Shown in pieces: positions 20,230 through 47,321 of a DNA stretch of 48,321 nt. A program made the position numbers and the translations under genes. The notes under the pieces are model-generated. The model was not told the DNA's origin, did not search any database, and saw only the letters and a list, made by a program, of their open reading frames with translations. Numbering within the stretch: position 1 is the first letter of the stretch; each line of letters opens with the position of its first letter. The DNA is from Anaerolineae bacterium (lineage in GTDB: Bacteria; Chloroflexota; Anaerolineae; UBA4142; SHND01), in contig JAJTXZ010000031.1 of the NCBI GenBank assembly GCA_021463195.1, forward strand, positions 1-48,321, read 5' to 3'.

Positions 20230-20274
20230 ACGGTGGACGGACGCCAGAGCTTGATTTTGTCATCCGTCCACCGT
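20230..20274. repeat. Inverted repeat between epimerase and methyltransferase
   Basis: ACGGTGGACGGA (20230-20241) is repeated inverted at 20263-20274 around a 21-base spacer. The epimerase stop codon lies in the right arm. There is no T-tract; it may be a transcript-stabilising or attenuating hairpin or a dispersed repeat. Confidence 0.55.
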
Positions 20275-20732
20275 CATTTTATTTCGGGGCCCTTGCGCCA
20301 ATCATATCCGATTGTCGAATCGTCATGCGGAATGCGCCCTTCGTCGGCGGGATTGTACGTGTTAGAAGTGATGTAAAAGAGGTGCATCGGACCTTGCAAG
20401 ACCTTGTAGCCGTGCGCGACGCCGGGGGGAATTTTCAAAATCTGCGCGGGATAATTTTCACCCAATAAAATTTCTTGCAATTCACCGTGCGTCGGTGAAT
20501 CGGCGCGCGTGTCGTACAACGCGGCTTGGACCGCGCCCAGCGCGACGTACCACCAATCAATTTGCTGTTGATGAATGTGCCACGCTTTCGCCGCGCCTTG
20601 ATGTGTTAGCGTGTGACTCCACTGTCCGAACCCTTCGGTAAAAAACGGGTCGTTCACGCGAATCAATTCGCGAAAAAAACCGCGTTCATCGTGATGTGTG
20701 ACGAGCGCTTTCAATGCGACACCGTGAATCAT
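20274..20732 (-). CDS. dTDP-4-dehydrorhamnose 3,5-epimerase-like cupin
   Basis: 152-aa protein of the RmlC family. HDERGFFRELIRVND, then KAWHIHQQQIDWWYVALG, and LKIPPGVAHGYKVL are family hallmarks, the His of KAWHIH being the catalytic base position. YDTRADSPTHGE is also typical. At about 150 aa it is shorter than classical RmlC (about 180), fitting the compact WxcM/RmlC-like group, so the exact nucleotide-sugar substrate is uncertain. No other rml genes are present in the window. Upstream lies a MITE-like element. Confidence 0.8.
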   Translation of the reverse strand: MIHGVALKALVTHHDERGFFRELIRVNDPFFTEGFGQWSHTLTHQGAAKAWHIHQQQIDWWYVALGAVQAALYDTRADSPTHGELQEILLGENYPAQILKIPPGVAHGYKVLQGPMHLFYITSNTYNPADEGRIPHDDSTIGYDWRKGPEIK

Positions 20733-20816
20733 ATTCGCTCCATCGAACGGGATAACGTTTGAATGTTGCCGCGAGTATAAAGGTCATTGAATTTAATTCA
20801 AAATAGCGCTGCTTTT

Positions 20817-20910
20817 CTGGTGATTGCCTGGATTTCCAGACCCCACGGGTTTTCGAAAACCCGTGGGGTCTGGAAATCCACTACGTTTTTGAGATGCGAA
20901 TAATCACCAA
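20817..20910. mobile_element. 94-bp MITE-like palindromic element, copy A
   Basis: The element starts CTGGTGATTGCC and ends AATCACCAA, near-perfect terminal inverted repeats. CTGCTTTT occurs directly on both sides (20809-20816 and 20911-20918), an exact 8-bp target-site duplication. Inside, 20829-20880 is a perfect 52-bp palindrome with a TTTTCGAAAA centre. Copy B at 47220-47313 has the same length and lies in opposite orientation. There is no coding capacity, so it would need a transposase in trans. It is inserted just upstream of the glyA -10 box. Confidence 0.88.
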
Positions 20911-20928
20911 CTGCTTTTGACTTGCGTA

Positions 20929-20937
20929 TGCTATAAT
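20929..20937 (+). promoter_or_regulatory. Extended -10 promoter for glyA
   Basis: TGCTATAAT, identical to the FkbM extended -10. The -35 position falls on the junction of the MITE-like element and its target duplication, where no consensus is seen. A leader of about 50 bases carries the ribosome site GAGGAG at 20979-20984. Confidence 0.65.
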
Positions 20938-20991: not shown

Positions 20992-22275
20992 ATGTTACGC
21001 CAAGTAGACCCTTTGCTTCGCTTTGGCAATTTGCCGCTGGAAGAAGTTGACCCTGAAATCGCCGTGACGATTGAATCGGAAAAACGTCGCCAACGCGAGG
21101 GCTTGGAACTCATTGCGTCGGAAAATTACGTCAGCCGCGCGGTCTTGACCGCCGTCGGCAGCGTGTTGACCAACAAATACGCGGAAGGATATCCCGGCAA
21201 GCGTTATTACAACGGTTGTGAATTTGTGGACGATGCCGAAGCGTTAGCCATCGCGCGCGCGAAAAAATTGTTTGGCGCCGACCACGCGAATGTGCAGCCG
21301 CATTCCGGTTCGCAAGCTAATTTCGCCGCGTACGTCGCGCTGCTTCAGCCCGGCGATACGGTTTTGGCGATGTCGCTCGCGCAGGGCGGGCATCTCACGC
21401 ATGGCGCGTTGGTAAACATCACCGGACAGTTGTACAAATTTGTCGGCTATGGCGTGAATAAAGAAACGGAACAAATTGATTATGCTGAATTGGAAAAACT
21501 CGCGCTGGAGCATAAACCGAAATTGATTGTATCGGGCGCGACGGCGTATCCGCGCAAATTCGATTTTGAACGTATCCGCGCGATTTGCGACAAAGTCGGC
21601 GCGAAAATGATGGTGGATATGGCGCACATCGCGGGTTTGATTGCGGGCAAGGTTCATCCCGATCCTGTGCCGTATGCCGAAGTGGTGACTACGACGACGC
21701 ATAAAACTTTGCGCGGTCCGCGCGGCGGCATGATTTTGTGCAAAGAATCCGAAGCCAAAGCGATTGACAAGGCGATTTTTCCCGGCACGCAAGGCGGGCC
21801 GCTCGAACACGTCATCGCGGGCAAAGCCGTCGCGTTTCAAGAAGCGTTGCTGCCCGAATTTCAAGAATACGCGCGGCGTATCGTCGAGAACGCGCAAGCG
21901 CTCGGCGCGCGTTTGCAAGCGCGCGGTTTGCGCGTCATTAGCGGCGGCACGGACAATCATCTCTTGCTCGTGGATGTGAGCGTGCGCGGCGTCACCGGCA
22001 AAGACGCGGCGAATCGTTTGCACGACGCGGGCATCACCGCCAATAAAAATTTGATTCCGTTTGATACCGCCAAAGCGACGATTACCAGCGGCATTCGGCT
22101 CGGCACGCCCGCGCTGACCTCGCGCGGCATGGGCGTTGAAGAAATGGCGCAGGTGGGCGATTGGATTGCGGACGTGATTGAACACAGCGACGACGACGCG
22201 ACCATTCAACGCGTGCGCGCCCAAGTGCGCGAATTTTGCTTGCAGTATCCGGTGCCGGGCATTCAAGACGAATGA
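20992..22275 (+). CDS. glyA: Serine hydroxymethyltransferase
   Basis: PLP-dependent enzyme that converts serine and tetrahydrofolate to glycine and methylene-tetrahydrofolate; 427 aa, normal length. The PLP lysine is Lys238 in [44 protein letters not shown] and [17 protein letters not shown] are family signatures. ATG 20992 lies eight bases after GAGGAG; the six-codon longer frame starting with TTG is rejected. Its stop overlaps the start of the JAMM peptidase gene (ATGA), so the two are coupled. Confidence 0.96.
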
Positions 22276-34940: not shown

Positions 34941-34990
34941 GTTTGGTCTAGGATAAACGACCCTTTGGGTTTCCGAAAACCCTTTGGGGC
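34941..34990. repeat. Palindrome-type repeat copy downstream of the ABC operon
   Basis: 34941-34982 matches 47001-47042 at 38 of 42 positions by eye, including GACCCTTTGGGTTTCCGA. In this copy the right arm reads CCCTTTGGGG, so the middle three positions no longer pair with the left arm and the palindrome is partly broken. Outer inverted ends like those of the other copy are not seen. Confidence 0.65.
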
Positions 34991-35052
34991 TAACATAGGT
35001 ACAATGAATTTTTTACGCGCGACGCGCGCGATTCTGTGATAAAGTGGACAGA

Positions 35053-46548: not shown

Positions 46549-46989
46549 ATGTATCAGAGACTGGTTCTCGTTGGGAACTTGGGGCGCGACCCCGAGATGC
46601 GCTATACCCCCAACGGCACTGCCGTGACCACGTTTCCTGTCGCCACAAGTCGGCGTTGGACGGATGCGTCTGGCACGTTAAAAGAAGAAACCGCGTGGTT
46701 CCGTGTTTCGGTGTTTGGCAAGCAAGCTGAAACGTGCAATCAATATCTTGCCAAGGGGCGCAAAGTATTGGTTGAAGGTGAATTGGCGGTGGATGAAAAA
46801 ACCGGGGGGCCGCGCGTGTATACGCGCAAGGATGGCACAGCTGGAGCTTCATTTGAAGTGCGCGGCTCTACCGTTCGTTTTCTCACTTCGAAAAGCGAAG
46901 CGGAGAGCGGCGGCTCTGGCGGCGCAAGCGGCGTGACTCCAATTTCGTCGGACGCGAATCCGATGGGGGAAGAGGATTTGCCGTTCTAG
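46549..46989 (+). CDS. ssb: Single-stranded DNA-binding protein
   Basis: 146 aa. The OB-fold is at residues 1-112 (YQRLVLVGNLGRDPEMRYTPNG, split by the usual beta hairpins, then ETAWFRVSVFGKQAETCNQY and KGRKVLVEGEL). A short Gly/Ser linker leads to the acidic tip EEDLPF, the docking peptide for replication and repair proteins. AGGAGG lies six bases upstream of the ATG. It stands alone and not in the usual rpsF-ssb-rpsR cluster, so it may be a second ssb copy; that cannot be decided here. Confidence 0.95.
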   Translation: MYQRLVLVGNLGRDPEMRYTPNGTAVTTFPVATSRRWTDASGTLKEETAWFRVSVFGKQAETCNQYLAKGRKVLVEGELAVDEKTGGPRVYTRKDGTAGASFEVRGSTVRFLTSKSEAESGGSGGASGVTPISSDANPMGEEDLPF

Positions 46990-46995
46990 CGCGAA

Positions 46996-47074
46996 TTCCG
47001 GTTTGATCTAGTCTAAAAGACCCTTTGGGTTTCCGAAAACCCAAAGGGTCTGTCCTCTAAATCAAATCGGAAAC
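46996..47074. repeat. 79-bp palindromic repeat downstream of ssb
   Basis: The ends are inverted: TTCCGGTTTGATCTAG (46996-47011) against CTAAATCAAATCGGAA (47057-47072), with two differences. Inside, AGACCCTTTGGGTTT (47019-47033) pairs with AAACCC-AAAGGGTCT up to 47052. 42 bases match 34941-34982 at 38 positions. It lies seven bases after the ssb stop and may also end its transcript. No flanking duplication was found. Confidence 0.7.
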
Positions 47075-47219
47075 TGGTCTAGCATCGCTGCGCGGTCTAG
47101 CGCTCGAACAACATGAAATCGCATAGTCCGCATTCTCAAATACGGCGTTATCAAGTGGAGTTCATTTGCGAACGCCTTTTTACGCAGGCGACCTCGCAAT
47201 TTCACCAAGTTACAGTACT

Positions 47220-47313
47220 CTGGTGATTACCCACATCTCGAAAACGCAGCGGATTTCCAGACCCTAAGGGTTTTCGAAAACCCTTAGGGTCTGGAAATCC
47301 GGGCAATCACCAG
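47220..47313. mobile_element. 94-bp MITE-like palindromic element, copy B
   Basis: It starts CTGGTGATT and ends AATCACCAG, perfect 9-bp terminal inverted repeats. ACAGTACT flanks both ends exactly (47212-47219 and 47314-47321). The core 47250-47301 is a perfect 52-bp palindrome. Aligned in reverse to copy A (20817-20910) it differs at 12 of 94 positions with no gap. Six of those differences form three compensating base pairs in the palindrome. Confidence 0.88.
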
Positions 47314-47321
47314 ACAGTACT

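Follow-up and report, generated by a model that had tools for sequence, protein, structure and literature searches.

MITEs of an Anaerolineae genome recurrently lie at a fixed, short distance upstream of outward-facing sigma-70 promoters. Computational analysis of the window (the whole stretch of DNA analysed, 48,321 nucleotides) and of related genomes identified the MITE family, its target-site duplications, the empty sites in congeners, the fixed promoter distance and the ends that the MITEs have in common with a transposase-encoding element. These MITEs very probably owe their mobility to an IS4-related transposase that acts in trans and whose target is the DNA immediately before the -35 box. 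A preliminary description of the window had correctly recognised one element, copy A, but had missed the promoter targeting across the family.

Copy A is located upstream of glyA (Table 1) in a genome of 4.72 Mb (143 contigs, 98% complete). Its ends, CTGGTGATT and AATCACCAA, agree at 8/9 bases, the mismatch being the outermost pair (C versus A). The internal palindrome is 100% identical to its own reverse complement over 52 bp, with a predicted folding energy as RNA of -56.8 kcal/mol (z = -11.4). The analysis thus confirmed the 94-bp MITE-like element with an exact 8-bp target duplication and the perfect 52-bp palindrome of the preliminary description. It also bore out the claim of a complete non-autonomous transposable element, on the basis of copy number, empty sites and autonomous elements sharing the ends. 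The description had named a lack of other genomic copies, or an element at the orthologous locus with no empty site anywhere, as outcomes that would speak against it; ~60 copies were found in the genome, and the region upstream of the glyA ortholog was empty in 5/5 congeners. An insertion sequence with the same ends, which it had proposed to look for, was found elsewhere in the class (for example L160, see below).

Table 1. Features of the window, with further positions of the CTAG-bounded repeats
Feature	Position	Strand	Details
Divergent dTDP-4-dehydrorhamnose 3,5-epimerase-like gene	20274..20732	-	Pfam PF00908, E 2.3e-22
Promoter-like TTGAAT-16-TATACT	20774..20801	-	consensus scan; outward, toward the divergent epimerase gene
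Left target-site duplication CTGCTTTT	20809..20816	+	8 bp, read from sequence
MITE copy A	20817..20910	+	94 bp; sequence and copy scan
Terminal inverted repeats, copy A	20817-20825 (CTGGTGATT); 20902-20910 (AATCACCAA)		
Perfect internal palindrome, copy A	20829..20880	+	52 bp; hairpin possible on both strands
Right target-site duplication CTGCTTTT	20911..20918	+	exact repeat of left copy
Extended -10 (TGC TATAAT), presumed glyA promoter	20929..20937	+	conserved in five element-free congeners
glyA, serine hydroxymethyltransferase	20992..22275	+	ATG at 20992; Pfam SHMT, E 1.5e-162
CTAG-bounded repeats	46986-47082; ~34959-34991		also L127 2734, L033 3947
MITE copy B	47220..47313	-	family match; the window's other copy
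Copy B target duplication ACAGTACT	47212-47219 and 47314-47321		perfect

The first scan of the genome returned 42 distinct MITE copies, and after further loci had been read there were 65 matches of at least 60 bits, some of them partial, fragmentary or without ends; these counts exclude a chance origin of copy A. Both ends could be placed for 52 copies, of which 38 (73%) were flanked by an exact target duplication of at least 7 bp, versus 1.2% when left and right flanks were paired across different copies as a control. The duplications were mostly 7-9 bp long with a mode of 8 bp, which fits the IS4 range of 7-13 bp (about one helix turn). The elements are short, contain no transposase ORF, carry terminal inverted repeats, are bounded by target duplications and occur in many copies, all of which are features of MITEs. 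The inverted repeats and 8-9 bp duplications do not fit the REP/RAYT class, in which Y1-mobilised hairpins lack target duplications. One locus (L128, 2085-2275) contained a tandem pair of copies with a duplicated GAAAAAA between them and a canonical promoter past the outer copy, and is a case of one promoter hit repeatedly by insertion.

We scanned the flanks of the copies for outward sigma-70 promoters, called as consensus matches with a -35 box of at least 5/6 to TTGACA, a -10 box of at least 4/6, a spacer of 16-18 and a -35 start 9-13 nt from the element end; an insertion preference drawn from them reflects surviving copies. Such promoters were present at the true offset beside 22/51 copies, with a modal -35 start of 11 nt; the count dropped to 0-2 (~0.5) at any one of 35 shifted offsets, and random positions gave a rate of 0.3% per side (binomial P ~2e-35). 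Because the offset range and thresholds were set after these copies had been viewed, P values from this genome err on the optimistic side. The same test found none at the 16 ends of an unrelated IS of this genome (0/16). TTGAC at offset 10-12 occurred in 17/56 right flanks and 9/58 left flanks and was rare elsewhere within the first 60 nt. The right end faced the promoter more commonly than the left (19/56 versus 10/58, P 0.053), and both orientations occurred. An ORF of at least 80 aa starting 36-350 nt downstream was found for 28/28 canonical flanks versus 65/82 other flanks; by inspection these genes included mnmA-, sodA-, gltA- and iscS-like genes, with MnmA, superoxide dismutase, citrate synthase and cysteine desulfurase as the likely products. 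About half of the copies, including copies A and B, had no recognisable promoter at the canonical offset.

A matching -10 box was found at 20/29 TTGAC sites of canonical offset versus 8% of all TTGAC in the same loci (P = 1e-16), indicating that promoters, and not the mere pentamer, are targeted. Right flanks without a -35 box still had a -10 box at 31-36 nt in 8/35 cases, with 0-2 at control offsets. TTGAC(A) could alternatively belong merely to a target consensus of the transposase, with transcription and RNA polymerase uninvolved; TTGAC is the strongest component of the target pattern, and IS4-type elements with target consensus sequences are known (PMC2266710). This reading is rather unlikely, however, given the properly spaced -10 boxes at most canonical sites and their enrichment at the right place even beside a poor -35 box.

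Elements elsewhere in the class that had the ends CTGGTGATTACCCA differed in their interiors and displayed the same promoter spike. With the same settings, flanks from other genomes, some few of which had been viewed ahead of the test, yielded promoters in 21/90 at the true offset and 0-3 at others, and these matches stem from ~19 genomes by our own count. TTGAC was found in these flanks at offsets 10 (7) and 11 (14) and hardly elsewhere. The end pattern TGGTGATTACCCANATC was detected in 28/396 class genomes, the reversed control giving 0, and most of the matches were MITEs whose interiors are unrelated to that of copy A. Many MITE families with common 17-18 bp ends and unrelated interiors were read (L162-L181, L138, L139, L148 and L157), one of them made of CACCGCAGAG repeats, and their interiors seem to be freely exchanged. 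Two pattern matches (L146 and L147) resembled coding sequence and were rejected as elements, and two ends lying 3.25 kb apart in L162 were read as two separate MITEs, not as one element.

Empty sites in congeners were informative about the order of events. Upstream of mnmA, congener G002 has the uninterrupted sequence GCGAAAATCTTTTGACAGAATCGGCAGTGTGCGTACACT, with the promoter kept as TTGACAGAATCGGCAGTGTGCGTACACT, and the genome studied here has an element immediately before that promoter; the promoter therefore predates the element. The sodA promoter (TTGACGCT...TATAAT) was recognisable in G001, G003 and G004, where the element is absent; for G005 the sequence read included its -10 part alone, and G002 had no recognisable version of it.

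Copy A itself is an atypical family member, having no -35 consensus beside it and a TATAAT (20932-20937) that begins 21 nt from its right end. The preliminary description had held that the right end and the duplication supply the glyA -35 region. They do occupy that position, but the hexamer found there on the assumption of a 17-bp spacer to TATAAT is AACTGC, which has 0/6 matches to TTGACA. Within the intergenic region the scan found no consensus promoter directed at glyA, the sole match being the leftward TTGAAT-16-TATACT, whose -35 box begins 15 nt from the left end of copy A. Judging from conservation, the glyA core promoter is presumably the extended -10 TATGCTATAAT, which is kept in congeners without the element (TATGMTATAAT in the five congeners, except that one of them keeps just its core). 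That the insertion altered glyA expression through a replaced -35 region, as had been suggested, appears doubtful: copy A displaced upstream sequence found in congeners and by position its end and duplication sit at -35, but no -35 consensus was made or visibly destroyed and the extended -10 is undamaged.

We examined whether the hairpin could account for the position of the elements. In 45 distinct copies, 37 hairpin cells had changes on both sides that keep pairing, 30 had one-side changes, 45 were broken and 1058 were unchanged. The paired changes may reflect selection or template-switch correction. If the hairpin insulated or regulated the downstream promoter and selection held it in position, its strength, this co-change of both arms and the location of copies upstream of housekeeping-type genes would be explained. 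Against this, no terminator-like T run was found at the hairpin, elements with unrelated interiors are placed identically, template switching also yields compensating palindrome changes and the promoters concerned are equally present in congeners that lack the element, so that such retention is improbable. Least probable of all is indiscriminate insertion into A+T-rich or intergenic DNA with persistence of just those copies that spare promoters and genes, for although known copies are survivors and the first 8 flanking bases are A+T-rich even without a promoter (0.70 versus 0.45 in the loci), this predicts a wide spread, whereas the count fell from 22 to 0-2 on shifts of at least 5 nt, up to 175 nt, and the 10-11 nt spike was seen again in other genomes.

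Relatives of the hairpin were also encountered outside the MITEs. The core palindrome AGACCCNAAGGGTTTTCGAAAACCCTTNGGGTCT occurs without MITE ends in many class genomes (G010, G018, G026, G043, G002 and G008; loci read, L072-L096 and L109-L115), and its arms there show compensating changes. Core palindrome matches in congeners and other orders were rejected as MITE copies, no MITE ends being seen. A second palindromic repeat family is bounded by CTAG (CTAGnncGAATTCC ... AGACCCTTTGGGTTTYCGRAAACCCAAAGGGTCT ... CTAG; Table 1) and has a core palindrome similar to that of the MITE; the copy at L124 is apparently nested in MITE-like sequence. Rfam returned only weak microRNA matches, which were rejected as an artefact of the perfect hairpin.

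Autonomous elements with MITE-matching ends were found in G106 (Chloroflexi MAG DBS2-1.bin85; L160 and L186) and in others of the class. The intact L160 element is ~1.45 kb long, contains a single 439-aa ORF, has the same ends as the MITEs and lies at the same distance from a promoter. Relatives of its transposase were detected in 17/396 genomes at E 1e-20, several of them with MITE-type ends and TTGAC 10-13 nt away, and none in the viral contigs searched. This genome's assembly contained no transposase of the L160 type, and as it is fragmented into 143 contigs an unassembled copy is possible.

The 439-aa transposase had no Pfam match, and sub-threshold matches to IS4, IS701, IS1634 and IS1380; the best scores of the Chloroflexota transposases against IS4 models were 13.7-45.7 bits, below the curated cut-offs of 152-160. 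An invariant catalytic triad, D105-D197-E326, gives the spacing D(91)D(128)E in the alignment and fits the IS4 pattern D(60-110)D(100-150)E, and a profile including a Thermus cousin matched Tn5 transposase (E 2.4e-9). The Y(2)R(3)E(6)K signature is replaced in the Chloroflexota transposase by W319-R322-E326-Q333. Models of IS256, ISLre2, ISKra4 and Transposase_mut did not match it at E <= 5, and single-sequence structure prediction reached a pLDDT of 41. On sequence grounds, the transposase is IS4-related yet without one defining IS4 feature, YREK (PMC2266710). The Thermus cousin, a plasmid IS of 1.31 kb (L216 and L217) with ends CAGGACTTTACCCACATCTCC resembling MITE ends and an 8-bp duplication, has the full YREK motif at ~28-32% identity; its copies examined had no promoter at 10-11 nt.

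Two other candidates for the autonomous partner in this genome were rejected. An IS with ends AGCGCATTTGAATATT interrupts the assembly at 16 contig ends (L057, L063, L065, L066 and L097-L108) and is an independent IS, since it lies mostly outside MITEs and has a CTNAG target; two of its copies lie at an identical point within the MITE palindrome, and the target recalls the IS10 hot spot. The only DDE_Tnp_1 match was one weak fragment (C80) of another IS4 group.

We infer that the transposase itself is the cause of the specificity. An IS4/Tn5-type DDE transposase would recognise the ends CTGGTGATTACCCAYATC, mobilise the MITEs in trans and duplicate 8-9 bp, favouring an A+T-rich stretch directly upstream of an existing sigma-70 -35 box. 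Insertion would then leave 9-13 nt, most often 10-11, between the element end and TTGACA, with the promoter pointing outward. The specificity could arise by contact with the RNA polymerase holoenzyme, through sigma region 4 or alpha-CTD, or by direct reading of promoter DNA by the transposase; the duplicated 8 bp would lie at about -46 to -38, in the alpha-CTD binding zone. A likely benefit is that coding sequence would be avoided and the core promoter usually left intact, and hence that the cost to the host would be low.

Promoter-directed transposition is known in bacteria from Mutator-type elements, whose insertion specificity was termed unique (PMC3942029). In that study, insertions of TnGBS/ISLre2 and of some ISKra4 elements lay 15-17 bp before the -35 box of sigma-A promoters; contact with the polymerase initiation complex was proposed for them, and end asymmetry was tied to insertion orientation (PMC3942029). 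The Chloroflexota elements resemble TnGBS/ISLre2 (p-MULT 3) and ISKra4 (p-MULT 4) in keeping a constant distance from the -35 box on its upstream side, in their 8-9 bp duplications and in the near-symmetric ends that accompany both insertion orientations. However, their transposase is IS4/Tn5-like and not Mutator/IS256-like, and their distance is mostly 10-11, range 9-13, instead of 15-17 bp, which places them outside that group despite working alike. The yeast retrotransposon Ty3, cited there as an analogy, also targets promoters, but it is a retroelement whose integrase contacts RNA polymerase III initiation factors, whereas polymerase contact here is only inferred.

Within the IS4 family (IS50/Tn5, IS10, IS4Sa and ISPepr1; PMC2266710), likenesses include the D(91)D(128)E spacing, 8-9 bp duplication, 5'-CT ends, ~1.45 kb length, single ORF and the full YREK of the Thermus cousin; differences are W-R-E-Q in place of YREK and family-model scores far under the cut-offs. 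Promoter targeting is not mentioned in the IS4 review (PMC2266710; the word occurs 0 times), and we found no report of an IS4-type element with promoter targeting among the openly accessible papers searched. Correia, MITEAba12 and BrickBuilt elements are likewise short, gene-less, intergenic and adjoining genes, but their reported promoters lie inside the element (PMC10969869), whereas here the promoter is outside, pre-existing and marks the site.

Taken together, it is quite possible, if somewhat short of probable, that an IS4/Tn5-type lineage evolved RNA-polymerase-docking targeting of the upstream edge of sigma-70 promoters independently of the Mutator-type elements and spread MITE swarms, with interiors unrelated to one another, class-wide to that one promoter position. 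A second lineage, of IS4/Tn5 type and at another fixed distance, would suggest that use of a low-damage target arose by convergence, and two unrelated transposase lineages would permit comparison of how each finds promoters. Tn5 transposase is structurally among the best-understood, so the targeting is open to dissection. The MITE copies may also serve as promoter markers in genomes without mapped transcription starts.
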